Origin: Calothrix sp. PCC 7716
GTDB taxonomy: Bacteria > Cyanobacteriota > Cyanobacteriia > Cyanobacteriales > Nostocaceae
Direction of reading: 5' to 3'
DNA: 64,000 bases
NCBI RefSeq assembly: GCF_019977735.1
Contig: NZ_AP025018.1
Location: 2,604,001 to 2,668,000, forward strand
Positions 26,261-64,000 of this stretch are shown here, in pieces. Positions within the stretch are counted from its first letter, which is position 1. Each line of letters starts with the position of its first letter. Position numbers and translations under genes: made by a program. The notes below the pieces were generated by a model, which had not been told where the DNA came from, did no database searches, and saw only the letters and a program-made list of their open reading frames with translations.

Positions 26261-27625
26261 ATGGCAACAAGAAAGCAGACGTTTAGACTGTACCCAAACA
26301 AGGAACAAGAACAAAAGCTGTTTGAGGTACGGCGATTACATGCGTACTTGTATAATGCTTGTATTGCTGACCGCCGTTTTGAGTGGAAGAAAAATGAAAA
26401 AACAGTAACTTATTTTGACCAACAAAATTGTTTACCTGAATTCAAAGAAGAGTGGCCAGAATTTGCGTTTTTACACTCGCAAGCATTACAAGCTACTGTA
26501 AAACGGGTTGACTTAGCTTACAATTCTTTTTTTCAAGGGCTACGAGGTTTACCAAAATTCAAATCAATTCGTGATTACTCAGGGTGGACTTATCCTGCAA
26601 CTTCTGGATGGAAAGTAAACAGTAACGGTAAACACGGACGTATAACTCTAAATGATTTGGGCATCAATATTAGAATGCGTGGTCAAGCCAAACAGTGGGG
26701 TAAACCAACTACGTTGACCATTGTTTATAAGCCAAGTCAAAATAAATGGTTTGCTTCTATAACAGTTGATGTTCCTGTTCTAGAGCCTAAGTTTGGCTCG
26801 CAATCCTCGCTCGAACATCAGAAGATTATTGCGTTTGACTTAGGATGTGAAACGGCACTTACCACATTTGATGGTGAGAAGTTTGAACTTTTCGAGAATC
26901 CTAAATTTACCAAAAAATCTGAGGAGAAGATACGTAAAGCATCTAAACAATTAAGAAGAAAACGCGCTCCAAACAAAGCTAAAAAAATCAAAGCTTCTAA
27001 CCGTTGGAAGAAAGCAAGGAAACGTGTTTCTAAACTTCAAGCTCTTGTTGCTACTCAAAGAAAGGATTGGCAACACAAAGTTACGTCAGATATTGCAAGT
27101 CGTTATGACATCGGCGTAACTGAGAAATTAGAAACTAAGAAGATGACCAAAAAGGCTAAGAAAGGTAGTAAGCGTAAAAAGCAAAAAGCAGGACTAAATA
27201 AGTCTATCCTTTCTGTAGGTTTTGGTGCGTTGAACCAAATGATTGCTTATAAAATTGAGCAAAAAGGCGGTTTGATGTTGATTCTTCCTACTAAAAAAAT
27301 CAAACCATCACAGAGATGCCCAAAATTTGGAAAAGTACATAAAGATTGGGCTGAACTTTCCAACCGATATCATGTTTGTAGTAAGTGTAAATTTGAAATA
27401 CAGCGTGATAAAGGGTCTGTGATGGTGATGTACAACGTTGCGACCGGACAGCAACCGGGGTGTGGAATGCGCCTCGAAGACTGTGGATGTTCTAGCTCTA
27501 CTGACTCGACTAAGAAGCGTAAGCAGACTGGTTCGATGAAGCAACTAGGGCAGAAGAAGCGTCAAAGTTCTAAAGCGAAAGTGGATGGGGTAGCAGAAAC
27601 CCCGTCCGCCGACGCGGCGGGGTAG
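26261..27625 (+). CDS. tnpB: TnpB, RNA-guided endonuclease of an IS200/IS605-type element
   Basis: 454 residues. The N-terminal domain starts RKQTFRLYPNKEQEQKLFEV. The RuvC-like nuclease has D193 (IIAFDLGCETALTTFDG), E288 (DIGVTEKLETKKM) and D383 (EIQRDKGS). The insert KKQKAGLNKSIL is the usual pre-zinc segment. The zinc ribbon is altered: CPKF at 353-356 replaces the first CxxC, while C373-x2-C376 remains. The residues after the last Asp (DKGSVMV) differ from the normal D-x-NAA. No TnpA gene is adjacent. The 3' end of the gene runs into a GC-rich hairpin that would belong to the guide (omega/reRNA). RuvC residues are retained, so nuclease activity is possible, but the broken zinc finger may weaken it. 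Confidence 0.9.
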   Translation: MATRKQTFRLYPNKEQEQKLFEVRRLHAYLYNACIADRRFEWKKNEKTVTYFDQQNCLPEFKEEWPEFAFLHSQALQATVKRVDLAYNSFFQGLRGLPKFKSIRDYSGWTYPATSGWKVNSNGKHGRITLNDLGINIRMRGQAKQWGKPTTLTIVYKPSQNKWFASITVDVPVLEPKFGSQSSLEHQKIIAFDLGCETALTTFDGEKFELFENPKFTKKSEEKIRKASKQLRRKRAPNKAKKIKASNRWKKARKRVSKLQALVATQRKDWQHKVTSDIASRYDIGVTEKLETKKMTKKAKKGSKRKKQKAGLNKSILSVGFGALNQMIAYKIEQKGGLMLILPTKKIKPSQRCPKFGKVHKDWAELSNRYHVCSKCKFEIQRDKGSVMVMYNVATGQQPGCGMRLEDCGCSSSTDSTKKRKQTGSMKQLGQKKRQSSKAKVDGVAETPSADAAG

Positions 27626-51221: not shown

Positions 51222-51244
51222 AAGATTTTTTAATGAGGTTTGCA

Positions 51245-51758
51245 ATGAAAAATGATTTAGAACGAGTAGCCTTAATAACAGGAGCATCACGAGGAGTTGG
51301 CGCCAATACTGCCTATCTTCTAGCAGAAGCAGGATTAAATATAGTAATAAATTATCACAGCAAAAGCTCGCGTGCAGAAGAAGTTGCCAACATTGTACGA
51401 GAAAAAGGGCGCCAAGCTTTACTCGGCACACTTCTACGGTAGTAAACCTGTTTACCCACTGTATGAACCAGTAGCGCAAAGTAAAAAAGCAGGTGAAGAA
51501 GCATTACGTGCTTATATACCAGAACTATCAAAAAGAGATATCAAGCTTGTAGTGGTTAGCGGTGATTTAATCGAAGGTACAATTACACCCAAATTGATGC
51601 AACGTCAAAATCCAGGTTTGATTGAAAAGAGGCAACAACAAGCAGGTGTTCTTCCGACAATAGAGGAATTTGCCCATGCTATTGCTTCTTCAGCACTCGA
51701 TAACCAATTAGAAACTGGGGCAACAATTTTTGTTGGAAGTACAGACTGGGAATTATAG
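51245..51758 (+). pseudogene. Short-chain dehydrogenase broken by an internal deletion and frameshift
   Basis: The first frame (ATG 51245) reads MKNDLERVALITGASRGVGA through EEVANIVREKGRQALL, the normal SDR nucleotide-binding half, then stops at 51442. A second frame resumes within the same stretch with AHFYGSKPVYPLYEPVAQSK and VVVSGDLIEGTITPKL and runs to 51758, the C-terminal half of a SDR. About 90-110 residues of the middle are missing around 51410-51440. The protein cannot be functional. A GGCGCC (51407) lies at the break. Confidence 0.85.
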
Positions 51759-53189: not shown

Positions 53190-53249
53190 AAAAACGAATA
53201 AGAAAAACTTAGTTAACAAACCAGGTTTATACAGAACCCCAAAGACATT

Positions 53250-53279
53250 AACCCACTAGCTCAATTGAACTAGTGGGTT
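53250..53279. terminator. Bidirectional hairpin between the CPBP remnant and the phage-like cassette
   Basis: AACCCACTAG and CTAGTGGGTT form a 10-bp perfect stem with a 10-base loop, exactly between convergent gene ends (53189 and 53285). On the plus strand GTTAGTTGTT follows. A good candidate terminator for both sides. Confidence 0.7.
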
Positions 53280-53284
53280 AGTTG

Positions 53285-53518
53285 TTACAACCTTTGTTCG
53301 ATACGTCGTTCGATATCGTCAAAGCGTCTATCAAGTTCGGCTAGAATCGTCGTAATGCCTTGTTGTAATTGCTCTTGGTTACGGCGCAAGTGTCCGATGT
53401 CACGCTCAAAACCGTAACGTTGCTTTTCTGAATTTGCGTACCAAAGCAGGACGCTAAGGAATCCAGAACCAAATGCGAGAACCAAGCCTCCAATAGCGAT
53501 AAGAGTATCAATTTTCAC
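53285..53518 (-). CDS. Small membrane protein with coiled coil, last gene of the cassette
   Basis: 77 residues. One membrane helix (LIAIGGLVLAFGSGFLSVLL, about 5-26) is followed by a charged coiled coil (RYGFERDIGHLRRNQEQLQQ, AELDRRFDDIERRIEQRL). This layout, one helix plus a cytoplasmic coiled coil, resembles small spanin/holin-accessory or haemolysin XhlA-type phage proteins, but no specific family is recognised. It is separated by 65 bp from the next gene. Confidence 0.6.
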   Translation of the reverse strand: MKIDTLIAIGGLVLAFGSGFLSVLLWYANSEKQRYGFERDIGHLRRNQEQLQQGITTILAELDRRFDDIERRIEQRL

Positions 53519-53583
53519 GGTTTATATTTCCATGCAAATAATCATAGCTGCACTAAGCTGTTGCAATACCAGCAGCAGCAATG

Positions 53584-53952
53584 CTAGTTAGTTTGAGTGT
53601 CGTCGCTACTAGGGTCTATCAAGTTTTCAATATAACTACCTGTGTTCACTTGTATCGAACAAGTAAAGCTCATGAGAGTGCTTTGATTTTGAGAATCACC
53701 ATAAGCATTTATAGTTTGCTCTACAAAATTAATGGGTTGTTTACCTTGTTGCTGGCGCTCGTTATTAATTTCATCATTTAAAGTAGCTGCACCTCTAAGC
53801 AATTTAGCAAGTGCTTCCACAATTGAAGAAGATAAATTAATATTGTCGCCAGTCAAAATAGAGCAATTGATTTTTACCTGGTTATTACCTACAAACTCAA
53901 TGCTACCAGCAGGTAATTGTGTTGCTAATCTTTCAAAAGTTAGTTGAGTCAT
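53584..53952 (-). CDS. Unknown small cassette protein
   Basis: 122 residues. The first half (MTQLTFERLATQLPAGSIEF, VGNNQVKINCSILTGDNINL) looks beta-rich, the middle helical (SSSIVEALAKLLRGAATLND) and the end polar. It is separated by two bases from the preceding gene, so it is part of the same transcript. No family recognised; a structural or adaptor protein is possible. Confidence 0.65.
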   Translation of the reverse strand: MTQLTFERLATQLPAGSIEFVGNNQVKINCSILTGDNINLSSSIVEALAKLLRGAATLNDEINNERQQQGKQPINFVEQTINAYGDSQNQSTLMSFTCSIQVNTGSYIENLIDPSSDDTQTN

Positions 53953-53954
53953 AT

Positions 53955-54485
53955 TTACAAATTGTCAATTTTATATTCGATGGTTTCTAATTTGGCACGC
54001 ATGGATTGAATTAAATCTTCGGTTGTATCTGTCTCAGTGCTGCGATACTCCCAAATTGCCAAGGTAACAGATTTTAACCAGGGGACAGCATCAAACCTTA
54101 GTGCAAAGCTATCCGAGTATTTTGGAAAAATAACTAGTTGAACGCAATTTAATTTAATAAATTTATTGCTAGCGTCAACTGTTGTTTCTGGTGTAGAATT
54201 CAAACCTTCAAACACTACAGCGTCATTAACTTTTACGCTTAATATTTCTTGCGTTAAATATCCCGCACATTTCCAAGTTGGTTTAGCTGTGGTTGAAAAA
54301 GTACCAACTAGAAATATTCTGCTAGTTGGTATTAATGGGATTTCTACAGGGTCAATGTAAGGAACTCGTACACCGCGCGGTCGCTGTATACCGAAGGGGA
54401 GGTCATCCGTAGTGTTTTCTTGTAACCGACGTTGGTAGACAAGTTCCCATGCACCAAAGTTAGAAGGGTTAAACGATAATGCCAT
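53955..54485 (-). CDS. Unknown cassette protein
   Basis: 176 residues from ATG 54485, overlapping the previous gene by 17 bp. Content: MALSFNPSNFGAWELVYQRR, RPRGVRVPYIDPVEIPLIPT, then beta-strands and WLKSVTLAIWEYRS. It reads like a compact beta-sandwich and ends in a short helix (LIQSMRAKLETIEYKIDNL). No family recognised. The size and position fit a small virion-like component, which is inference only. Confidence 0.65.
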   Translation of the reverse strand: MALSFNPSNFGAWELVYQRRLQENTTDDLPFGIQRPRGVRVPYIDPVEIPLIPTSRIFLVGTFSTTAKPTWKCAGYLTQEILSVKVNDAVVFEGLNSTPETTVDASNKFIKLNCVQLVIFPKYSDSFALRFDAVPWLKSVTLAIWEYRSTETDTTEDLIQSMRAKLETIEYKIDNL

Positions 54486-54708
54486 TATCTAAATCCCATT
54501 CCTCGGCTGCTTCAAAAACATCAACACCTGATTCGTGTAAGAAATTTAAGAAGAAATCAGCGTCAACTTCACCCTTTAAAAAAGCATCTGTAGCTTTTGC
54601 TCGAACAAGCATTGATGCAATTTCTTCTTCAAAATCCGCTTCTGATTGTTCGGGATACCAAAGAGCGGGGGTAGAAAGTTGAGTAAGTAAGCTACTATTC
54701 TCCGCCAT
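54469..54708 (-). CDS. Unknown short acidic protein
   Basis: 79 residues, strongly acidic (SEADFEEEIASMLVRAKATD, VDADFFLNFLHESGVDVFEA). The start overlaps the previous gene by 14 bp and its end overlaps the next by 17 bp. This degree of overlap indicates real coding and coupled translation. Helical, no family recognised. Confidence 0.65.
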   Translation of the reverse strand: MAENSSLLTQLSTPALWYPEQSEADFEEEIASMLVRAKATDAFLKGEVDADFFLNFLHESGVDVFEAAEEWDLDNGIIV

Positions 54709-55237
54709 CGGCTAATACAAAATATTCAGGAGTAAACCAAACACGACCATATGGTCCACCAAGCTTAGATTTAACTGCGGTAAATGCAGCTTTTACTTCG
54801 GTGTCTATAGCGGCAACTGATTGAATAGAAATAGGAGCGCTGTAATTGTATTGGGACCCGCCGCCTCTTTCACCCTTTCCATATCTCATGTATGGGCGCC
54901 CGCTGGGTTTAGCTCTCAATACTTTAGGACTTCCATCGGCAACCGTTGCGCTTACCATAGCTGGTCTAGCTCCCCTTGGTAACGGGTCTTTTGCTGCTGC
55001 ATCGGTTAAATTAAGTGCTGCTACTGTAAAAAACTGTACAGATTCTTTGGATGCTTGTACTTTATATTTTTTAGCTCCTTCACCAGCAGCAATAGCCATA
55101 GGTTTGTAAGCATAAGCAACTTTAGGTAGTCTGCGGCTAGTTGCTCCTTCTTCTCGAACTGGTGCTTTATAAGCTTCTCGTGCCTTAGCGTATTTCAAAT
55201 CAGCTTCTAGTTGTGCTGCTGTTTTACGGCGTCCCAT
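54695..55237 (-). CDS. Unknown basic cassette protein
   Basis: 180 residues, basic N-terminus (MGRRKTAAQLEADLKYAKAR), middle with LPRGARPAMVSATVADGSPK and a Gly/Arg-rich stretch (GRPYMRYGKGERGGGSQYNY), and an aromatic end (GGPYGRVWFTPEYFVLADGG). No family recognised. It lies about 125 bp from the 272-residue gene. One GGCGCC is present (54897). Confidence 0.65.
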   Translation of the reverse strand: MGRRKTAAQLEADLKYAKAREAYKAPVREEGATSRRLPKVAYAYKPMAIAAGEGAKKYKVQASKESVQFFTVAALNLTDAAAKDPLPRGARPAMVSATVADGSPKVLRAKPSGRPYMRYGKGERGGGSQYNYSAPISIQSVAAIDTEVKAAFTAVKSKLGGPYGRVWFTPEYFVLADGGE

Positions 55238-55362
55238 AGTTTTGTATTACAAAAAGTCTTTTTTGATTCTTTTTCAGTTGTAGCAAGGGTTTTAAGTTAT
55301 TTTTTCATCCGGAGAAGTTAAGTAGTCCAGCAAATTTTTGCTAAAACTCAAAAATTTATTTA

Positions 55363-56181
55363 TTAAACTTGTTCAATAACGCTTCTAAGTCGAGTTCCCC
55401 CGGTAGCAACCAGGTTTATCGCGTTAGGCAATCCCTGTATTTTGAGTTGTGCGTATTTAAATTTCACGTCTACACGTGGCCGTTTAGTATATTTTTTGCG
55501 GGTTTGACCATACACTCTGTGCGTTCCAGGGTTAGCAGGGTAAGAGCGGTCATGGTCGATGAATTGAAAATTATCACGCTCAAAAGGGTGATTTTGAATT
55601 TTGAGTATTTGCTTTACTACTCGCTCACCCTCGGCTTTTGATTTTACAAACAAACGTAAATCATAACCTCTTTCTGTATCTAAATAGGTGCATTTATACC
55701 AACCCTTGCCCCATTCAAATACGGGTTTAGCAAGTTGATTTTTAATATCTCTAGCGAGTTTCTCGGCTTTAACGCGCGTCATTGATTCGCTAGTTTCTGT
55801 TACTAATCTAAAACTAATTTCCGCTTCGGCTCTAGATTCACCATTTCCGTGTGCTTCGCTGTTATATGGTTCTAAAAAATAAAGTGTTACCTGTGGTTTA
55901 TACTTCCAATTAGTTTGTACTTCTTGCTCTGGGATTGCGTAAACAGGTCGCTGTATAGCTTGCATTCTACCTACGGTTACCTCGAACAACCACAACCGCA
56001 TTTGTGTCATTGATGCTGAATCGTCGTCTTTTATCAAACAAGCATGTTTCAATCCTCCCTTTGGTGTTGAAATGTCATCATCTGCTTGCCGACTAAACCA
56101 AGCACGAACATTTTTATTATGTTCTTTTCTAACAAGGTCTTGAAGATGTTCAAATTCACTAAAGTTTGTTGGTAAAGGCAT
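55363..56181 (-). CDS. Unknown 272-residue cassette protein
   Basis: 272 residues; its ATG shares one base with the stop of the long neighbour (TAATG), a coupled arrangement. The sequence is rich in basic and aromatic residues (RLWLFEVTVGRMQAIQRPVY, YKPQVTLYFLEPYN, RRPRVDVKFKYAQLKIQGLP-like end, here KKYTKRPRVDVKFKYAQ). No motif identified. The repeated pattern of strand-like YKPQVTLYF and VDVKFKYA suggests a beta-rich domain. Confidence 0.65.
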   Translation of the reverse strand: MPLPTNFSEFEHLQDLVRKEHNKNVRAWFSRQADDDISTPKGGLKHACLIKDDDSASMTQMRLWLFEVTVGRMQAIQRPVYAIPEQEVQTNWKYKPQVTLYFLEPYNSEAHGNGESRAEAEISFRLVTETSESMTRVKAEKLARDIKNQLAKPVFEWGKGWYKCTYLDTERGYDLRLFVKSKAEGERVVKQILKIQNHPFERDNFQFIDHDRSYPANPGTHRVYGQTRKKYTKRPRVDVKFKYAQLKIQGLPNAINLVATGGTRLRSVIEQV

Positions 56182-58880
56182 TAATCATCAGCCTCCTTAT
56201 TCTCGTCATTAATAGCTTGTGCTTGACTTGCTGTCTTTTCAGTAACTTTAGTTTCAGCAACTTTTTTATTATCTTTCTCCTGTTTAGGTACAGAATCTTC
56301 AAGACTTTTAGTGAATACTTCTTTTTGCTCTTGGATTTCTTTTAAGTTGTCTTGAATACTAATTACTTCTGAAGTAATCATCTCAATTCCTTCAGCAGCT
56401 TCTTGCAGGTTCTCTAAACGTTGTTGCCACTTACTTTGAGCATTTACATTTTCAGGCATCCATTTAAAAGCTCTATCTCCAACTACTCCAAAACGTTTTA
56501 AAGCATTACCAATACGTCCAGTGTTCTCTGCTGTCCATTCTTGGATATTTCTAGCTGAATCTAGCATTGACCGCATGGAATTAAAAATATTGGCGCCTGC
56601 TTGATAAATCCGGTTCCATTTAGCCCAAGTCTTTTTAATACCCGTCCAAGTCTCTACACCAAATAAACCTTTTGCAAAATCATCAATTGCTTTACCAAAG
56701 AAAGATTTAGCGTCAACATCAACGCCGTCATCATCTTTCATGAAAATATTTACAACGTTATCAATAATTGAAAATAAGGTATCTGTCAGGGAACTACTCA
56801 ACATGTAAGCGTTGTGTAAAGTATTTACCCACGTCAAAATATTAAGCATTCGGTCGAGTTGCAGCCATTTAGAAAAACGCTGTAATTTACCACTTATGCC
56901 ACCTGGCATTTGAGGACCAAGTTTTGTATTAATTACACCTAAAAGTGCTAAATCAGTACCTTGAAGTAAGAGACTTAATTTGTCGAGCTTGTCACCATTT
57001 GTTGTAATTTTATCAAGCATTTTTTGCTGACAGCTTGAACATCCATTAGGCGTTGGTGGAGGTGGTGGAGGTTCGGCTTTCCTGGGTGGTCCAAAAGGAA
57101 AGGGTGCAGGAAAGCCAGGAGGCTTGGGAATTGGTGAGGGACTTGGACTTGGACTTGGACTTGGTGATGGTGAGGGACTTGGGCTTGGGCTTGGGCTTGG
57201 TGATGGTGAGGGACTTGGGCTTGGGCTTGGGCTTGGACTTGGTGATGGTGAGGGACTTGGGCTTGGACTTGGACTTGGTGATGGTGAGGGACTTGGGCTT
57301 GGGCTTGGGCTTGGACTTGGGCTTGGACTTGGACTTGGTGATGGTGAGGGACTTGGGCTTGGGCTTGGACTTGGACTTGGACTTGGGCTTGGGCTTGGTG
57401 ATGGTGAGGGACTTGGGCTTGGGCTTGGGCTTGGTGATGGTGAGGGACTTGGGCTTGGGCTTGGACTTGGTGATGGTGAGGGACTTGGGCTTGGGCTTGG
57501 GCTTGGTGATGGTGAGGGACTTGGGCTTGGACTTGGACTTGGTGATGGTGAGGGACTTGGACTTGGGCTTGGTGATGGTGAGGGACTTGGGCTTGGGCTT
57601 GGTGATGGTGAGGGACTTGGGCTTGGAGCAGAACCGACAGGGACTATATCAATTATTTGTAAATCATTAGCTGTACTCGCAACAGAAAAAGCTAAAGGAT
57701 GCACAGCTCTCCAAAAGGGTTCCCATTTTGAGGGATATCCAGTCAAAACAGAAACTACTTGTATTGTTCTTCCGTCGAACGGACGCGCTGGCGAACCTTC
57801 TATTGGTTCCCATCTGAAGCCAAAAATAGGGCCTTCTACGAGCTTTTCCGTGTATTGGCGAAACTCCTGTTTTTGCCCATAACTGTAATAAGTAACAAGA
57901 ACATCGCCCTTTATTAAATATAAAATTCCAGCGTTACCTTGCTTTGGAAACCTGTCCGACGGACGAGGAGGTGCTGAAGTTGGCGGAGGAGAATCAACAG
58001 GTGTAGGTGGTGGAAACAACAAATCAGCTACAAACCCTCCAACCATTCCACCAACAAAACTACCAACAAAGGCGCCTGGTGGACCACCCAACGCACCGCC
58101 AATTACACCCCCAAGAATTCCCCCAGCAACACCACCACCGGCACCAAATAATGCAGCGGCTGGAGGTTGCCCCCTAAGTGAACGAATTGCAAAATCAGCG
58201 GCGCCACCAATCAAAGGTCCTGCTAAACGTGCAGCGGGAGTTGGTGGAAGTCCTGGAAATGGAGATGGAGTTTTTGGCGGTGTACTTGGTGGAGGTGGTG
58301 GAAATTTGGTTACTGGTGGCGCCTTAACTTGTGTCGCTGTTGGCACAGTTCCACCGCCACCGTTACCACGTGGTGGAGATGCTGAAGTTGGCCGATTAGA
58401 TGGTGGTGGCGCCTTTGGAGGAGATGCGGGTCTTGGTTTAGGCTGTGGTTTATCACCCGGTGGCTTATATCTATTTGCTACTTCTCTATCTGCTGCTTGC
58501 CTGCGTTGAAGTTGCCGTTCTTCGAGTGATGGTGGTGGTTTATATTTAGCGTTTTTTACTTCTTCTCTAGTACGCTTAATGCTTTCTTCAGCATCATTGA
58601 TTTGTTGTTGCTTGCGCTGCTTTTGCTTATTGTGCATGTCAGCTGAAGCAGTTTCATAGTCTTGATTCCAATATTCAGCACGGTCTTTAAAAGTTTGTTT
58701 TATTGCAGCGTCAGCATCTGCAACTCGTTCAGCTTTATTCGCTAACTGTTTTTTTTGAATATCGGCAGAACGAATCTCTTGCTCTTGCCAGTTTTGAAGC
58801 CTTTCTGCATGAGCTTTTTTTTGTGCAGCTTGCTCCAAAAGCTCCTGCATTAAATTACTGTTCTGCTCGAAATTTGACAT
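56181..58880 (-). CDS. Large protein with glycine-zipper segment and about 80 Ser-Pro repeats
   Basis: 899 residues in five parts: an N-terminal helical, Lys/Glu/Gln-rich segment (1-125); a Pro-rich linker (125-205); a hydrophobic Gly/Ala segment ([19 protein letters not shown], about 240-295) that looks like a membrane or membrane-inserting glycine zipper; and a small globular domain ([19 protein letters not shown]). A (Ser-Pro)n stretch of roughly 165 residues follows. The C-terminal 280 residues include a CxxC ([10 protein letters not shown]), amphipathic helices ([20 protein letters not shown]) and a coiled coil ([20 protein letters not shown]). It resembles nothing I can name. The layout, membrane-active segment plus long rigid PS spacer plus coiled coil, could suit a tail-tape-measure-like or surface-tether function. 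Confidence 0.75.
57130..57630. repeat. Low-complexity (SP)n coding repeat
   Basis: About 500 bp of six-base units (on the plus strand GGACTT, GGGCTT, and GGTGATGGTGAG interludes) encode alternating Ser and Pro on the minus strand. The GGTGATGGTGAG block recurs between runs of GGCTTG units, giving higher-order repeats of about 36-60 bp. The plus strand shows long open frames here that are artefacts of the repeat. Confidence 0.95.
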
Positions 58881-58881
58881 A

Positions 58882-59208
58882 TTATGCAGTAAAAATGGTA
58901 GGAATTTCTACGCTGCTTAATGGTTGTGCATAATTCCACATTCCATCATTACCGGATAGATAGTTTTTGGACATTTCGACAGAGACTCTACCCAAAAAAC
59001 GATATTTTTTATCACTTTCAACATAAAAGACACCTGCCTGCGCTGCTCTTTCTGTTGAACCCGCTCCTTCAATAACGATTAGGTCTGAATTGATATGAGA
59101 AAGAGAAAGGATTGCCCATACAGCTAATTCCTCTAAAGTGTCAACGCTGTTGGGTAGTTGAGTTTTGCTAAAAGCTGTCATAGCTCGAAATTTTGTATAT
59201 AGTTTCAA
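58882..59208 (-). CDS. Unknown protein upstream of the large cassette gene
   Basis: 108 residues from ATG 59208, one base before the large gene. It has the string [20 protein letters not shown] and [20 protein letters not shown]. No family recognised. It is the first gene of the minus-strand cassette, so its promoter should lie in 59209-59379, which it shares with the divergent recombinase. Confidence 0.65.
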
Positions 59209-59379
59209 ATCAATTTTTAACTATTTTCACTTAATCGTAAATACACCACTTTTATGTAAAACAAGTAGTAGCACTGAACCGCTCTATATATTGCTGATTA
59301 TAAACTTGAGGCATTAATAGCATCAGGGCAATTTAACTTATTACAACTTTTACCTATTAATTCTGGTTAAATATGTAGA
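59209..59379. promoter_or_regulatory. Divergent intergenic region of the element
   Basis: 171 bp, AT-rich, between the minus-strand cassette and the plus-strand recombinase. It must carry both promoters and possibly an operator; no clear repeat pair is visible. An attachment site could lie here, but none can be identified without the empty site. Confidence 0.4.
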
Positions 59380-59973
59380 ATGCCTAAAAACAATCGGTCA
59401 GGTCAAGCAACAGTGTTAAACGACGCTGAATACTTGACAATTAAAAATCACTTTGTTAATCCAAAACATAAGCTAATTGTTGATGTCGCTTGGTGGACAG
59501 GTGAACGCATGGGGGCAGTTTGTAAACTTCCAGTTAAAGCTGTGTTTGATGTTAAGGGTCAACCATTAACACACATCACTTTTCCTAAAGTCATCCGCAA
59601 AGCGTCACCCAATGGTGAACGTAAAACCCGCCAAGTTCCTGTGCATAAAAATTTACGCGCGCTTTTGCGTGAATACTGGCAGTTGCACAAACCAGATATT
59701 AACAATTGCTTGTTTCCTGGAAGTGAGGAAAATGTGCCAATACAGCTTCAGTCTTTTGATGATGCGCTGCGTAGAGCTATTAGTAAAGCTGGCATGGAAA
59801 GTCAGGGTATTAGTACTCACAGTTTCCGACGCTCGTTTATTACGAAGCTCGCGCGTAAAGGTATTGCAGTTTCTAAAATCCAAAAACTCACAGGACATGC
59901 AGATTTAAAAGTACTGTCACGTTACATCGAGGTGAGTGATGACGAACTCGCGGAGGCAATTGCTGTGTTATGA
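59380..59973 (+). CDS. Tyrosine recombinase/integrase (catalytic domain)
   Basis: 197 residues with a full catalytic set: R43 in WWTGERMGAVC, Lys in the beta-hairpin near 70-82, H147-x2-R150 in STHSFRRSF, H173 in LTGHAD and Y182 in SRYIEV. It lacks a distinct N-terminal core-binding domain, so it is a short form, as seen in integrons, XerA-like proteins and small cyanobacterial elements. Its stop overlaps the next gene by four bases (ATGA). It could integrate the element or act as an invertase. Confidence 0.92.
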   Translation: MPKNNRSGQATVLNDAEYLTIKNHFVNPKHKLIVDVAWWTGERMGAVCKLPVKAVFDVKGQPLTHITFPKVIRKASPNGERKTRQVPVHKNLRALLREYWQLHKPDINNCLFPGSEENVPIQLQSFDDALRRAISKAGMESQGISTHSFRRSFITKLARKGIAVSKIQKLTGHADLKVLSRYIEVSDDELAEAIAVL

Positions 59974-60581
59974 ACATAGTTACTTCAAAATACGCGCGGT
60001 TTGAAAACTTCTTACCAATAGAAGTAAATCAAAGCCTGATGGAATTTACACTCAATCACGAGAGTTATTTTATACAGCGTCCTACCTCTCCTGATTACCC
60101 TGCTCAATATGCTTTCGGTGCCCCAAATGGGTTTACGGCTTGGAAGTTCGTAATTCTCAAACAAGTGAAGCTGTGCTTGCCTCAAGTGTTTAAAGCGCTT
60201 GATTTAAAGCCGTTTGATGTTGGAGAAATTGAAACAGATGTGAGTTCCTACCCTGATATGGGATACCTTGCAACTCACAATGATACTTTCTGTGCCAACA
60301 CTCGTGTACTGAGTTTTGTTTATTACTACCAAAATTTTGAAAAAAGCTTTAGTGGTGGACAGTTAGCTTTATATGACTCAGAAGTTGATTGCTTCTTGAA
60401 TACACAAAAAGCTAATTCCTGTCATTTAATCGAGCCAGAGAATAATACTTGTGTTTTCTTTCCGTCGCGGTGTTGGCATGAAGTTTTACCAGTTGCTTGT
60501 GATTTTAAGAGCTTTCCGAATAATTACTTTAGCGGTGGTCGGTTTTCGATAAACGGCTGGATACACAAGGCTTTTAATTAA
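59970..60581 (+). CDS. 2-oxoglutarate/Fe(II)-dependent oxygenase (prolyl-hydroxylase-like)
   Basis: 203 residues. The double-stranded beta-helix triad is visible as H103-x-D105 in LATHNDTFCAN and H170 in SRCWHEVLPV, with the SFSGGQLALYDSE strand and the final GGRFSINGWIHK, whose Arg may bind 2-oxoglutarate. It matches the 2OG-Fe(II) Oxy_3 (P4Hc) family. Such oxygenases are often carried by cyanophages, where substrates are unknown. Overlap with the recombinase suggests one transcript. The large Pro-rich protein nearby could be a substrate (speculation). Confidence 0.9.
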   Translation: MNIVTSKYARFENFLPIEVNQSLMEFTLNHESYFIQRPTSPDYPAQYAFGAPNGFTAWKFVILKQVKLCLPQVFKALDLKPFDVGEIETDVSSYPDMGYLATHNDTFCANTRVLSFVYYYQNFEKSFSGGQLALYDSEVDCFLNTQKANSCHLIEPENNTCVFFPSRCWHEVLPVACDFKSFPNNYFSGGRFSINGWIHKAFN

Positions 60582-60631
60582 ATCGATATACATCTTTTAC
60601 TTGATAAACCTTACAAACTTGATATTGATAT

Positions 60632-61138
60632 ATGAAATTTGGTATTGATATTGGCCACAACACTTCCCCTGATGGCGGCGCCGTGGGAATCAAAGCAGAA
60701 AATGCTTTAAACATGGAAGTTGGCACGAGAGTTATAGCCAAACTTAGAAAGTTAGGACATTCCGTAGTTGAATGTAAACCGTCGAGTGCAAACTCTGTTA
60801 GTCATTCGTTGTGGCAGCGGGTAAATACTGCCAATGCTGCATGTGTTGACCTGTATGTGTCGATACACTTCAATGCTTTTAACTGGAATGCTTACGGGAC
60901 TGAGGTTTACGCGATTTCGCCAACCGGGAGGAGGTACGCTTTTGCGGTGTTAGAGCAAATATGTAAGTTAGGGTTTTTTGACCGTGGTGTTAAAAATGGT
61001 TCACGCCTACTCGTTGTCAAAAATACTAAAGCACCCGCAATTTTAATTGAGTGCTGTTTCTGTGATAGTAAGCGGGATATGGACTTGTACGACGCTGAAA
61101 AAATGGCAACTGCAATTGTTGAGGGGTTAACCAAATGA
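60632..61138 (+). CDS. N-acetylmuramoyl-L-alanine amidase (Amidase_3, endolysin-like)
   Basis: 168 residues. Zinc ligands H9 (DIGHNTSPDGG), E29 (ALNMEVG) and H79 (SIHFNA), and catalytic E140 (AILIECCFCDS) are all present. No signal peptide and no cell-wall-binding repeat, so it is phage endolysin-like: a cytoplasmic lysis enzyme needing a holin. The next two small genes overlap it by four bases, forming an apparent lysis cassette. Confidence 0.93.
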   Translation: MKFGIDIGHNTSPDGGAVGIKAENALNMEVGTRVIAKLRKLGHSVVECKPSSANSVSHSLWQRVNTANAACVDLYVSIHFNAFNWNAYGTEVYAISPTGRRYAFAVLEQICKLGFFDRGVKNGSRLLVVKNTKAPAILIECCFCDSKRDMDLYDAEKMATAIVEGLTK

Positions 61139-61332
61139 CATTAATATCCCTAGAACTTGTAGATGCACTCGTTAACCTCAATATCCAAGTGCTTAATCAC
61201 AAAATTATTCACCCGCGTGAATTAGCAGCGGCACTTGAAAAAGTTGCTGAGGATGCTTGGTTAGAGGTCGAAAATCTTGCTTTAACACAAAACTCGGATA
61301 ACTTGGCGCCCAGTTTGAGAATTGACCCATGA
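61135..61332 (+). CDS. Small unknown protein in the lysis cassette
   Basis: 65 residues from ATG 61135, overlapping the amidase stop by four bases and the next gene by four. Helical (SLELVDALVNLNIQVLNHKI, LAAALEKVAEDAWLEVENLA). No family recognised. Both overlaps indicate a translated operon member. Confidence 0.65.
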   Translation: MTLISLELVDALVNLNIQVLNHKIIHPRELAAALEKVAEDAWLEVENLALTQNSDNLAPSLRIDP

Positions 61333-61487
61333 AGAGTAAAAATGCACCAATTTGGTTGGTGTTTTTGGCATGTGTTGGCGCCGCAACAGTAGCAATTCTT
61401 GATGCCCACTACCGCGATGCTTTTATGCAGCTTACACAATCTATCATTGTTGGGTTTTGGGGTTATATGCAGGCGCCAAAGGATTAA
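61329..61487 (+). CDS. Holin-like small membrane protein
   Basis: 52 residues from ATG 61329 (MKSKNAPIWLVFLACVGAAT...). It has an N-terminal charged start and two short hydrophobic stretches (PIWLVFLACVGAATVAILD and SIIVGFWGYMQ). Following an endolysin directly, with ATGA overlap, it fits a small holin. Size and topology are the only evidence. A strong terminator hairpin follows at 61507. Confidence 0.6.
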   Translation: MKSKNAPIWLVFLACVGAATVAILDAHYRDAFMQLTQSIIVGFWGYMQAPKD

Positions 61488-61506
61488 AGCTTCACACTCA
61501 CTGGTT

Positions 61507-61536
61507 ACACCCTGTATTGTTACAGGGTGTTTTCTT
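61507..61536 (+). terminator. Rho-independent terminator of the lysis genes
   Basis: ACACCCTGTA, loop TTGT, TACAGGGTGT, followed by TTTTCTTC: a classic plus-strand terminator 20 bp after the holin-like gene and at the end of the convergent next gene. Confidence 0.9.
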
Positions 61537-62258
61537 CAAGGTTGTTTGAGGTAGCGAGTTATCTCGTCTGGCTGTTTACCGTTACTTATTAGCTGCAACA
61601 CTTCCTGTCGTTTTTGCTTTGCAATGTTTGAACATGTTGAGCCAATATGCACCCGTTTGATTTTTCTGCCTTCCATCCAACAGTAGCGATAGTATTTATG
61701 TTTCTTATTTGCTCTTTTGACCCAATATGGTTCAATCCAATGACTCTGCTTTTTTTGACTTGGATTGTTATTACTTGTGTGGCTGTTTACAGGATACTGA
61801 GGTGAAGGTAATAAGTAAGAGGTTTCATTTGCATCCTCATCGCTACTGAGTTGCATGTGTTCGGGAGCAAGCTCAAAAGCTTGTGTTATCTGCTCCCGAA
61901 CACCCGTAGTTGATGATTGTGATGTGATTGGTGTTACATCACTACTATTAATAGATTGAGTATTGCTTGTTACCTGCCCCCGAACACTTTGCCACTGACA
62001 CCAAGCTTCTTCAAACTCTTCAATACTATTAAAGTCATCTGGTTCCGGTGGTTCATGCGAATCATCATAAAAGATGGTAAGTTGATCCGCTTCGCTTTTA
62101 AAAGGTACTTCCCCAAAGTCCGCTTCTTTCCATTTCTCCTCTGTGTGTTCGGGGGCAATAATTTCTGTGTCCCAGCAGGGGTCATATATTGGTTTTGATG
62201 ATATATGTGTACTGGGAGTCGAGGGAATTGAGAATAACGCTAATTGTTCAAATTCCAT
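61536..62258 (-). CDS. Unknown acidic protein of the element
   Basis: 240 residues. The first two thirds are acidic and Ser/Thr-rich, with no obvious fold (EEKWKEADFGEVPFKSEAD, DDFNSIEEFEEAWCQWQSVR). The C-terminal 75 residues are basic (HWIEPYWVKRANKKHKYYRY, RKIKRVHIGSTCSNIAKQKR). That end resembles DUF6788-type YYRY...GKRIKRVYIG segments in cyanobacterial mobile-element proteins, which may bind nucleic acid. Its start base is shared with the next gene (ATG within TAATG-like overlap). Confidence 0.6.
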   Translation of the reverse strand: MEFEQLALFSIPSTPSTHISSKPIYDPCWDTEIIAPEHTEEKWKEADFGEVPFKSEADQLTIFYDDSHEPPEPDDFNSIEEFEEAWCQWQSVRGQVTSNTQSINSSDVTPITSQSSTTGVREQITQAFELAPEHMQLSSDEDANETSYLLPSPQYPVNSHTSNNNPSQKKQSHWIEPYWVKRANKKHKYYRYCWMEGRKIKRVHIGSTCSNIAKQKRQEVLQLISNGKQPDEITRYLKQP

Positions 62259-62461
62259 TACTGATTCCCTCCCCTGGTAAATGTAACTATTTCATGGCGA
62301 ACGAGATTGTTTGCTGTTTCTCGCATTGCTTCTGCCCAGGCTAGGGCAACGGTTGGGGGGAGTTGCTGTAAATCAGCCTCTGTAATAAAGCGCTGCTTAA
62401 TCCAGTTTTTGAACAGTAACAATTGCCCTTTATCTATAAAGGAACTTCTGGAATAATTCAT
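62258..62461 (-). CDS. Small unknown protein of the element
   Basis: 67 residues. Basic/helical (MNYSRSSFIDKGQLLLFKNW, IKQRFITEADLQQLPPTVAL). No family recognised. Coupled to the 240-residue gene by a one-base overlap, so probably a genuine operon member. Confidence 0.55.
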   Translation of the reverse strand: MNYSRSSFIDKGQLLLFKNWIKQRFITEADLQQLPPTVALAWAEAMRETANNLVRHEIVTFTRGGNQ

Positions 62462-62489
62462 GACATTAATAACCTATGTTTTAGTTACT

Positions 62490-62512
62490 CGCCCTTTATT
62501 GGGCGTTTTTTG
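62490..62512 (+). terminator. Short hairpin CGCCC-N6-GGGCG plus T run
   Basis: CGCCC (62490-62494) and GGGCG with TTTTTTG after it give a plus-strand terminator-like shape, but the surrounding genes are on the minus strand and the hairpin overlaps the end of the replication-like gene. It could terminate read-through from the plus strand. Confidence 0.4.
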
Positions 62513-63257
62513 TTGGGTATATTTCGTCGTCTATGTATAAGTCGGTGTAAGTATCAAAGGTTAATATTACATCCATGTTTTCAAGTATCCATTGATTCTC
62601 TAATTCCTCCCAGTAACGATGTCGTAAACACTGCACAAGCCAGCCAACCCTTCGAGCGATGACTTTCTTTTTACATTGAAATTTAAGTAACATCAATGCG
62701 AGTTGCACCTCCTCAATTGAATAGCGATAAATATCACAGATTTCGGGAAGTTCTAACCCGGCTTCTTGGTTAACTAAATCCCTAATTTCATCCTTGGTTT
62801 CTTTAGATACCTCCTCTATAGTCGGTAAAGAGTAAGACTGCTGCTGCGAAAGGGGGTTTTCAACTTTCTTAGACTCATCCCCTTTTTCAGCCTCTAAAGT
62901 GGAATTATTTGTATTAGTTTGGAATGATTGTTTTTTAGGTGGTTTCAAGCAATCAAGCGGTCTAATTAGTAACTTAAATACGTGCCAACTGTACTGCTTT
63001 ACGATTTTAATAACTCCCAATTCTTCCAGCTTGGCGAACACTTGTTTTAAGTGGCGATTGCAGTATGGTTCGCCTCTTTTCTTTCCAACTAGCTGGTTAA
63101 AATCAATCAAATCGATTTCTACTTCTTTACCGATTCCACTATTTGTTACTAACCAGTACCATAATTGTTGTGCAGCACACTTAATTCCGAGTTTTAAACA
63201 GAATTCCTCATGCTCGTCTGTCCATTGGTTGATGAAATTTTTGATTGTTTTATGCAT
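62496..63257 (-). CDS. Winged-helix/replication-initiator-like protein
   Basis: 253 residues. The N-terminal half (QLWYWLVTNSGIGKEVEIDL, CNRHLKQVFAKLEELGVIKI) has the helix-turn-helix and wing pattern of replication-initiator or phage DnaD-like proteins. A Gln/Ser linker (about 115-155) and a helical C-terminal domain follow (EICDIYRYSIEEVQLALMLL). It may start replication or regulate the element. The family call is tentative. Confidence 0.55.
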   Translation of the reverse strand: MHKTIKNFINQWTDEHEEFCLKLGIKCAAQQLWYWLVTNSGIGKEVEIDLIDFNQLVGKKRGEPYCNRHLKQVFAKLEELGVIKIVKQYSWHVFKLLIRPLDCLKPPKKQSFQTNTNNSTLEAEKGDESKKVENPLSQQQSYSLPTIEEVSKETKDEIRDLVNQEAGLELPEICDIYRYSIEEVQLALMLLKFQCKKKVIARRVGWLVQCLRHRYWEELENQWILENMDVILTFDTYTDLYIDDEIYPTKNAQ

Positions 63258-63387
63258 AATAATAAGTAAATTAATTTGAAAAATAACAAAACCATTAAAG
63301 CTGTCGCTCTCCGGAATGCTTTTTGGTTTTTTTTATGGATGTGATAGGTTTTTATGTGTTCATTACATGCACCTCTTTTTTCTCTAG

Positions 63388-63411
63388 CCCTCACTGCGAG
63401 CGTGAGGGATT
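63388..63411 (+). terminator. Hairpin CCCTCAC-N7-GTGAGGG
   Basis: A 7-bp stem followed by ATTTTG, on the plus strand, in the gap upstream of the replication-like gene. It may be part of its leader (minus) or a terminator of plus-strand transcription. Confidence 0.45.
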
Positions 63412-63446
63412 TTGCTATAACTGTGATTGGTAATTTACGTAGTCCG

Positions 63447-63474
63447 CTCCTTCACGCCATGTAATGAAGGAGCT
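63447..63474. terminator. Hairpin GCTCCTTCA-N10-TGAAGGAGC
   Basis: A 9-bp perfect stem, directly after the stop of the minus-strand 90-residue gene and followed on the plus strand by TTTTAGC. It is the probable transcription end of that gene's region. Confidence 0.6.
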
Positions 63475-63475
63475 T

Positions 63476-63748
63476 TTAGCGTCTGTCTCGCTCTAAATCC
63501 CAAATTACTTTTTCTATATGCCACTTGGCGGTACGTCCTGGATGCACACTGCGGGACACCGATAATAATCGCTTCAAAGCATCTACGTCTCCTTGCAGCA
63601 TATTTAGTAATCGTGATTCAAGCTCATAAACTTCATCTGGGTAAGGTCTTTTTCTTCTCCTAGGTTTAAAGAAGTTTTCTATCTGCGGCGCCCATTTAGC
63701 AACAATGAGCGCTAGCGCTATTACACACAAAGTAATTAAACTGTTCAT
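63476..63748 (-). CDS. Small membrane protein, cyanobacterial type
   Basis: 90 residues from ATG 63748. One N-terminal membrane helix (SLITLCVIALALIVAKWA) is followed by a basic stretch (NFFKPRRRKRPYPDEVYEL) and a helical end (NMLQGDVDALKRLLSVSRSV, WHIEKVIWDLERDR). The LLNMLQGD...AKW..EKVIWDLERDR block recurs in small cyanobacterial proteins I know only as hypothetical. It could be a membrane-tethered element protein. Confidence 0.6.
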   Translation of the reverse strand: MNSLITLCVIALALIVAKWAPQIENFFKPRRRKRPYPDEVYELESRLLNMLQGDVDALKRLLSVSRSVHPGRTAKWHIEKVIWDLERDRR

Positions 63749-63883
63749 AGGATTGATTTAGCAGGGATTATCAATCCAAAATGCAGGACTTTACCTTGAT
63801 AGGTCATCGGGAAAGTCCGCATTTTTTGAACTACGGGTTTTTGCGTACATAATATAAACCGCTCCACCCGTAGGTAGAACGGT
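63749..63883. other. Gap with a hairpin before the last gene
   Basis: AACCGCTCCACC and GGTAGAACGGTT (about 63857-63884) can pair with two mismatches around CGTA, directly beside the end of the next minus-strand gene. It is likely its terminator. No other feature seen. Confidence 0.4.
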
Positions 63884-64000
63884 TTACTCGTTATCTTCTA
63901 TTTCTGTTTCTTGTTGCTGGCTAGAGATTAAATTGTAAATTTCCTCTTTAACCTCTTTAACCGCTTCGCGAAACTCTTGTTCTTTCTCCTTGCTTTCACT
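63884..64000 (-). CDS. C-terminal end of an unknown acidic coiled-coil protein (partial)
   Basis: 38 residues remain to the stop, reading SESKEKEQEFREAVKEVKEE then IYNLISSQQQETEIEDNE: a charged amphipathic helix. The rest is outside the window, so the family cannot be judged. It continues the minus-strand direction of the element's accessory genes. Confidence 0.5.
   Translation of the reverse strand, partial: SESKEKEQEFREAVKEVKEEIYNLISSQQQETEIEDNE

Follow-up and report, generated by a model that had tools for sequence, protein, structure and literature searches.

How did a block of eight tightly packed minus-strand genes come to sit in the genome of the cyanobacterium Calothrix sp. PCC 7716, and what does it make? 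The block lies at 53285-59208 of a 64,000-nt stretch of contig NZ_AP025018.1 (positions 2,604,001 to 2,668,000; the whole stretch is hereafter called the window), and an original prediction, made from the letters alone, saw in it a candidate undescribed system, perhaps a phage-like particle, secretion device or satellite. That prediction treated the cassette as a local unit ending at 59208; the unit continues past this position, and an IS110 recombinase with a bridge-RNA-like region, lying outside the window, was missed. Judged from its sequence, the cassette is one arm of a 14.8-kb mobile element that reaches beyond the window. Comparable elements of filamentous cyanobacteria, mostly 15-19 kb, are probably integrated by a bridge-RNA-guided recombinase, and the best overall explanation, which we regard as likely, is RNA-guided IS110 integration of an element with a particle or transfer cassette.

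In numbering continued past 64000, the whole element spans 53237-68029 (14,793 bp, with 53237..64000 inside the window), bounded by guide-matched ends and by empty sites in genomes G004 and G003. At the left junction, the host sequence ATACAGAA (53229..53236, plus strand), which is matched by the left target guide, abuts the left end of the element, CCCCAAAG. The right end (68020-68029) reads TTAGAGTGAA; it was derived by comparing element ends, and is conserved across relatives, identically or in close variants, downstream of the IS110-family recombinase. Flank searches located the unoccupied site of the window copy in two genomes: in G004 with a 2-bp overlap of the flanks, and in G003 with 11 bp between them. 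For a second copy, at 3.92 Mb of the same 12.4-Mb genome (16,341 bp; approximately 73-90% DNA identity across most of window 53557-63868), unoccupied sites were located in G003 and G006, with the flanks as cut 1 nt apart; a partial one in G004 retains only 39 nt of the right flank. In G005, a genome listed under the same genus, a stretch containing the cassette is duplicated exactly in tandem (period 15,393 bp), with a right-end/left-end junction. Nine elements have both ends and measure 14.8-18.8 kb. For a tenth, g133, the left end is matched but no right-end motif was found, so that its 11.2 kb is an estimate only. These ten follow a common plan: left end, cassette pointing left, a divergent short tyrosine recombinase and replication-type genes, then small genes, the bridge-RNA-like region, the recombinase and the right end. 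Among them, C272 was labeled in all ten, F in nine, B, D, E and R253 in eight each, the amidase in four, and a full-length P-loop ATPase in two.

The recombinase (66566-67762, plus strand) belongs to the IS110 family, with DEDD_Tnp_IS110 and Transposase_20 domains (PF01548, PF02371) above curated cut-offs and intact motifs. Immediately upstream lies the bridge-RNA-like region (66210-66565, plus strand), approximately 350 nt that are conserved in the 14 elements first compared and predicted to fold into two internal-loop hairpins, with 26 of 60 predicted pairs carrying changes on both sides among eight sequences. Loop 1 follows the pattern GGGCTTT-(left guide)-GAA-xCAAGC...GGCTTT-(right guide)-TTC, the left and right target guides of the window copy falling at approximately 66416-66424 and 66440-66448, and loop 2 bears AGAGTGAA and GGGTGATTC, or variants. 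An Rfam scan of the window and six element loci left the bridge-RNA-like region unmatched and reported only NsiR1 beside the insertion. In IS621, according to the passages on its guides, left guides pair with the bottom strand and right guides with the top strand (PMC11208160); when this polarity is applied, the guides of loop 1 give the predicted target and those of loop 2 the predicted element ends. We infer that the conserved region is transcribed as a bridge RNA bound by the recombinase.

Loop 1 does match both host flanks of the whole element, even though the left end of the window copy is approximately 13 kb away. For this copy, the match is with the left flank as it now stands in the case of ATACAGAA, and with the unoccupied sites in the case of GAAAACCT. 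In copy 2, the left flank is identical to the left guide, TTTAAGAAGAA, and the right flank to GAAATTATAAA, which is the complement of the right guide; the corresponding unoccupied site in G006 reads TTTAAGAAGAAATTATAAA, giving 19 contiguous matching bases, about four of which come from the invariant loop frame.

The same correspondence is seen across a survey of 37 recombinase loci, of which 14 come from cassette loci and 23 from elsewhere. One pattern sufficed to read the target loop in 30 of these (g87, G037, G029, G073C105, G080d, G003 and G040b were unreadable), and in 24 of the 30 the end motif, which came from elements already seen and was chosen without the guide, lay within 700 nt. In the right flank, the five bases that follow GAA agree with the element's own guide at 100 of 120 positions and are perfect in 14 of 24 loci, whereas 10,000 shuffles of the partners gave means of 36.5 positions (maximum 59) and 0.6 perfect flanks (maximum 5). 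On the left, GAA(T)CCC anchors located 8-22 kb upstream carry the element's own five-base guide in 10 of 13 elements, compared with a shuffled mean of 0.86 (maximum 6) and with one match among 156 non-own pairs; this left-hand test is not fully blind, since the anchor was read off matches already observed. On the donor side, the G/C variant of the right end tracks the left donor guide of loop 2 in 23 of 25 readable loci (about 17 by chance, P 0.002), and the right donor guide, judged by eye, fits the left end with a one-base bulge, tracking its sequence GAACC in g0a and g0b and GAATC in the others. The ends, the intact recombinase, the predicted two-hairpin region and the matches of loop 1 to flanks and of loop 2 to ends are read directly from the DNA, and they point with high confidence to RNA-guided integration of the whole element.

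Several observations weigh against this conclusion. The right junction of the window copy has one A more than its guide predicts (the empty sites fit), and its left match is only 8 bases long. Ten of the 24 right flanks are imperfect, clearly so in g61, G049 and g5 (the first G005 copy): g73, g122, G083, G045C17 and G090C89 agree at four of five bases, g0a (with one extra A) and G080c at three, G049 at two, and g61 and g5, whose neighbor is the next tandem copy, at one. Left ends were not found for g73, g61 and g40. The end motifs used as anchors were taken from some of the same elements tested, and related elements are not independent in the guide-flank statistics. The target guide of g80 (G080:C1:1309000-1338000; L157, L158) resembles its donor guide, for which reason its match may stem from a neighboring copy. 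No IS110 recombinase of this type was seen within 20 kb at 53 of the 73 places where the cassette protein C272 was detected, in some perhaps because contigs end; most cassette loci are therefore not shown to belong to an IS110-ended element. Finally, the bridge-RNA transcript, the circular form and the recombination are all inferred.

Other features were seen around the element ends. At its left junction, the G080:C1 element has a sequence resembling another copy's right end, and it may insert next to its own kind. The NsiR1 match (a nitrogen-stress RNA; L036:17024-17085, minus strand, equivalent to 68024-68085 continued) lies at the right flank of the window copy and is just above the gathering score. 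The first 100 bp or so of that flank recur at several places in relatives, which means that the element inserted beside an NsiR1-type repeat. CRISPR-like repeats (GTTGCA...GGGATTGAAA) occur inside elements near their left ends (L075:6065-6215 and L059:7985-8070; three in G004 and two in G005), and an 11-repeat CRISPR-like array lies just outside the G012 element.

The cassette itself consists of eight open reading frames (ORFs) whose predicted positions, minus-strand orientation and lengths (77, 122, 176, 79, 180, 272, 899 and 108 aa) were all accurate. Their frequencies below relate to 44 loci that were fetched for holding C272, the query by which loci were found, so that C272 (55363..56181) is present in 44 of 44 by construction. 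Leftmost is H77 (53285..53518), in which a membrane segment and a coiled coil of spanin/holin-like appearance are visible by eye, followed by G122 (53584..53952; 10 of 44 loci). F176 (53955..54485; 37 of 44) has a predicted beta-rich fold with a C-terminal helix, and E79 (54469..54708; 31 of 44) is a small acidic protein. D180 (54695..55237) occurs in 12 loci and a position-equivalent family, cl4, in 18, together 30 of 44; the two families are probably homologous (hhalign probability 91, E 9e-7). On the other side of C272 lie B899 (56181..58880; 38 of 44) and A108 (58882..59208; 8 of 44). Nucleotide differences between the window copy and copy 2 fall at third codon positions in 39 of 53 cases for F, 43 of 54 for D, 85 of 123 for C and 15 of 21 for E; because of this bias, and because gene order is kept elsewhere, the ORFs are real genes. 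Unlike C, D, E and F, A108 (L035:12060-12386 in the other copy) shows no DNA differences between the copies, which suggests gene conversion.

None of the eight proteins exceeds a Pfam family cut-off, and their best PHROGs hit is a weak spanin match of the 77-aa protein (phrog_4297, E 0.019), bearing out for the core the statement that no known family is matched. The architecture proposed for the 899-aa protein was largely recovered: by eye it has a coiled-coil-like N-terminus, a proline-rich part and a glycine-rich, zipper-like stretch, and a Ser-Pro tract (residues 415-580, with approximately 80 SP) that is a tandem repeat at the DNA level. Its proposed CxxC domain fared less well. The conserved C-terminal part begins with CSSC, yet among ten aligned B proteins the spacing of the two cysteines is not constant or the pair is missing, and the place of the SP tract is taken by different linkers. 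The adjoining integrase and lysis genes are as announced: a tyrosine recombinase comprising the catalytic part only (59380..59973, plus strand; PF00589, E 3e-20) and an endolysin-type N-acetylmuramoyl-L-alanine amidase (60632..61138, plus strand; PF01520 and phrog_435 endolysin), the latter in 10 of 44 loci.

C272 was detected at 73 places in 42 of the 150 genomes searched, its own genome included. B, C and F co-occur in 32 of the 44 loci, with order and strand kept in 31 of the 32. The co-occurrence search that had been proposed thus confirmed a linked set, and neither clear matches to phage tail or conjugation proteins nor scattered, unlinked homologues, the two outcomes named as adverse, turned up for the core. 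The front of the cassette is variable and in some loci encodes phage tail-fiber-type proteins (Pfam PTR, E 2e-31, in one; collagen, E 3e-19, in another; a PHROG tail-fiber match, E 7e-43, in a relative). Two genomes hold near-identical copies in which about 7.3-7.5 kb of cassette are common at 95.6 and 99.3%, and the flanks differ except for a 2.2-kb stretch at 71% in one genome and short repeats in the other. Being shared while its flanks differ, the cassette behaves as a module. A search of plasmid records with C272 returned two cyanobacterial plasmids, pHT582-1 and pHT582-2, both typed non-mobilizable. Both carry B and C, and pHT582-1 also carries D-E-F-G; unlike the window element, they possess plasmid partition genes. 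On pHT582-2, a 1690-aa protein (L033:9827-14899) has an MACPF (pore-forming) domain above cut-off. The IS110 recombinase lies within 20 kb of C272 in 20 of the 73 places, as against approximately 0.57 expected from random placement in 7-Mb genomes, and a P-loop ATPase does so in 15.

With respect to what the cassette makes, a particle or transfer module is the reading we favor, with some reserve. The endolysin-type amidase, the membrane-coil protein and the fiber-like proteins of relatives make a phage-like particle or transfer device the most natural interpretation. The idea of a phage-like particle, secretion device or satellite is upheld insofar as a linked set, undescribed as far as the searched libraries go, sits in a mobile element with integrase, amidase and fiber-like relatives; it is unsupported insofar as no capsid, portal, terminase, sheath or conjugation family was recognized in the proteins scanned. 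Structure prediction, one of the proposed checks, was applied to C272 and F176. The C272 fold is confident (pLDDT 85), yet Foldseek returned nothing at E 1e-3 or better (best PDB match E 0.075; best BFVD match, with an unnamed protein, 1.5e-3), and it gave no support to the Sphaerolipovirus-like jelly-roll capsids that had been considered as a candidate. F176 (pLDDT 79.6) is predicted to be beta-rich, and many of its top PDB neighbors are viral capsid jelly rolls, none of them significantly (best E 0.012, query TM-score <=0.33).

Some sequence results tell against a particle. Searches of phage records with C, D, F and the B C-terminus found no match, and IMG/VR scans (C272 twice, B and the recombinase) yielded no relatives, although such short-peptide-pattern scans can miss them. 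PHROGs gave scattered weak matches for 42 C272 members (best E 0.009) and none for 34 F176 members. Capsid, portal and terminase went unrecognized in ten window proteins (Pfam, PHROGs) and in ten picks each in Pfam and PHROGs, partly the same; these scans covered chosen proteins rather than every gene of every element. No relaxase or type IV secretion family turned up in the general protein scans, whose coverage of genes was similarly partial. The P-loop ATPase linked to the cassette in relatives was not found in this genome, and the amidase was recognized in only four of the ten elements. In a PDB sequence search, the linked ATPase returned generic P-loop matches and C272 a single match at E 0.57. 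Two ATPases of other loci match phrog_2666, labeled terminase, weakly (E 4e-4 and 5e-5). A 179-aa copy 2 protein with an ATPase profile label has no P-loop in its sequence and was not counted.

The proposed mechanism would proceed as follows. The conserved region would be transcribed as bridge RNA and bound by the recombinase; the donor would be a circular form in which the right end is joined to the left end; and crossover would take place within the shared GAA core, such that the RNA selects the site and the whole element enters or leaves as one piece. Of RNA-dependent recombination through a circle, only the tandem right-end/left-end junction in G005 has been observed. The constant cassette (B, C, D, E and F, with variable and sometimes fiber-like front proteins) may then build a particle, or a device of the envelope, by which the circle reaches another cell, the outcome being a phage-like element integrated by RNA guidance.

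Other explanations merit consideration. The element could be driven by its tyrosine recombinase, as a phage-plasmid or integrative plasmid, with an ordinary IS110 insertion sequence having later jumped into its end, so that the guide matches concern only the insertion sequence. The short tyrosine recombinase is present in ten of ten elements, which also counts against RNA-guided integration, and some cassette loci have a different, larger tyrosine recombinase, such as G015, where no such IS110 gene was found. We nonetheless judge this scenario very improbable: in 10 of 13 elements, the flank that fits the left target guide is located at the opposite end of the element, 10-18 kb upstream of the recombinase, and in the best empty sites the two flanks either have a 2-bp overlap or are separated by 1 nt. 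Furthermore, no left end was seen at 16 additional recombinase loci in the upstream sequence covered (mostly about 1 kb, and fewer than 100 bases in two), so that no cargo-free version was observed. Kinship with filamentous phages is improbable too, if less so. Passages on the Thermus and Neisseria cases place an IS110-family gene at one end of the phage (PMC11437467), and a 7.2-kb Acinetobacter phage is described as carrying one (PMC11209303). However, the ATPases scanned gave no Zot match in Pfam or PHROGs and, by eye, have their hydrophobic part before the P-loop; no Zot-type ATPase was recognized in the window element; and the amidase and large fiber-like proteins do not fit.

Two further alternatives to a general particle or transfer module, each possible but on balance unlikely, concern the cassette product. 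One sees in these elements small non-tailed phages (15-19 kb) of a new family, whose capsid is formed by F and perhaps by C or D, with the linked membrane ATPase packaging the DNA and RNA-guided integration serving as the lysogeny module. A constant cassette with changing integration and replication modules, the amidase and membrane-coil genes, the jelly-roll neighbors of F and the ATPase near C272 all suit this idea; the insignificant F matches, the lack of a PDB match for C, the missing ATPase in this genome (its full-length label occurs in only two of ten elements) and the silence of phage records on C, D, F and the B C-terminus do not. The other, a serious rival, is that the cassette forms no particle and instead makes a device for adhesion or for the envelope, or a surface system of plasmid type, to the benefit of the element or its host. 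It accords with the two non-mobilizable plasmids, with the proline-, serine- and glycine-rich linkers of surface type, and with an amidase that is unrecognized in six of ten elements; the endolysin type of that amidase in some elements and the phage fiber repeats in others oppose it.

Small non-tailed phages of the Matshushitaviridae, tectivirus and corticovirus types are one class for comparison. The elements resemble them in size class, lysis-type gene and possibly beta-rich structural proteins, and differ in that no capsid or packaging-ATPase match has been established. Among guided systems, the closest are the IS110/IS621 insertion sequences, for which bridge RNA has been described in IS621 (PMC11208160) and seekRNA in IS1111/IS110 (PMC11187229). 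Shared features are a DEDD and Transposase_20 recombinase, a long noncoding region upstream, two internal loops, the same guide polarity and a short shared core. In contrast to a compact insertion sequence, the present elements are mostly 15-19 kb, 10-17 kb of other genes separate the left end from the RNA, and the shared core is GAA instead of CT. Filamentous phages (Thermus Zuza8, Zuza27 and phiOH16, Neisseria Nf and Acinetobacter Af) offer a parallel, in that an IS110-family enzyme of the phage itself is considered responsible for its integration: passages on them report such genes at one end of the Thermus phages, citing the Nf case (PMC11437467), and in an Acinetobacter phage (PMC11209303), and ISNgo elements have been proposed to integrate Neisseria filamentous prophages (PMC3454330). 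Those passages make no mention of a guide RNA, and the element described here is larger, with amidase and fiber-like genes and no recognized inovirus proteins.

In a literature search excluding preprints and most subscription papers, none of the titles and abstract openings listed described guide-RNA integration of a large or phage-like element. What is probably new is IS110 bridge-RNA-type integration of an element with orphan, possibly viral, cargo. It is conceivable, though short of an even chance, that the elements represent a hitherto unknown group of temperate viruses of cyanobacteria, or of virus-like transfer particles, mostly 15-19 kb in size and with novel structural proteins and an RNA-guided lysogeny whose site is re-chosen by loop changes.

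Bridge-RNA recombinases are familiar from insertion sequences and are being pursued as genome-writing tools. Here, such an enzyme appears to move approximately 15 kb of replication, lysis and structural-type genes, and the diversified guides of many elements constitute a natural test set for guide-target rules, the GAA core and large cargo. It also becomes possible to test whether RNA guidance underlies integration by the IS110-family enzymes of filamentous phages, and defined elements are now available for learning what the orphan cassette builds.

The remaining genes of the element lie to the right of the cassette. Next to the tyrosine recombinase is OXY (59970..60581, plus strand), found in only 3 of the 44 C272 loci. 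Beyond the amidase, three minus-strand genes follow: R240 (61536..62258; 12 of 44), R253 (62496..63257; 10 of 44), replication-initiator-like by position and look only and without a family match, and M90 (63476..63748; 8 of 44), a membrane protein by eye. Outside the window are a ribbon-helix-helix (RHH) gene (64075-64272, minus strand), weakly NikA-like and below cut-off, and, after the IS110 recombinase, a 74-aa gene (67753-67977, plus strand). To the left of the element, a short-chain dehydrogenase-like gene, recognized by eye at 51233-51758, is split into two overlapping ORFs in different frames and is probably broken. Finally, a 454-aa protein encoded at 26261-27625 of the window resembles, by eye, the TnpB/OrfB transposon proteins.

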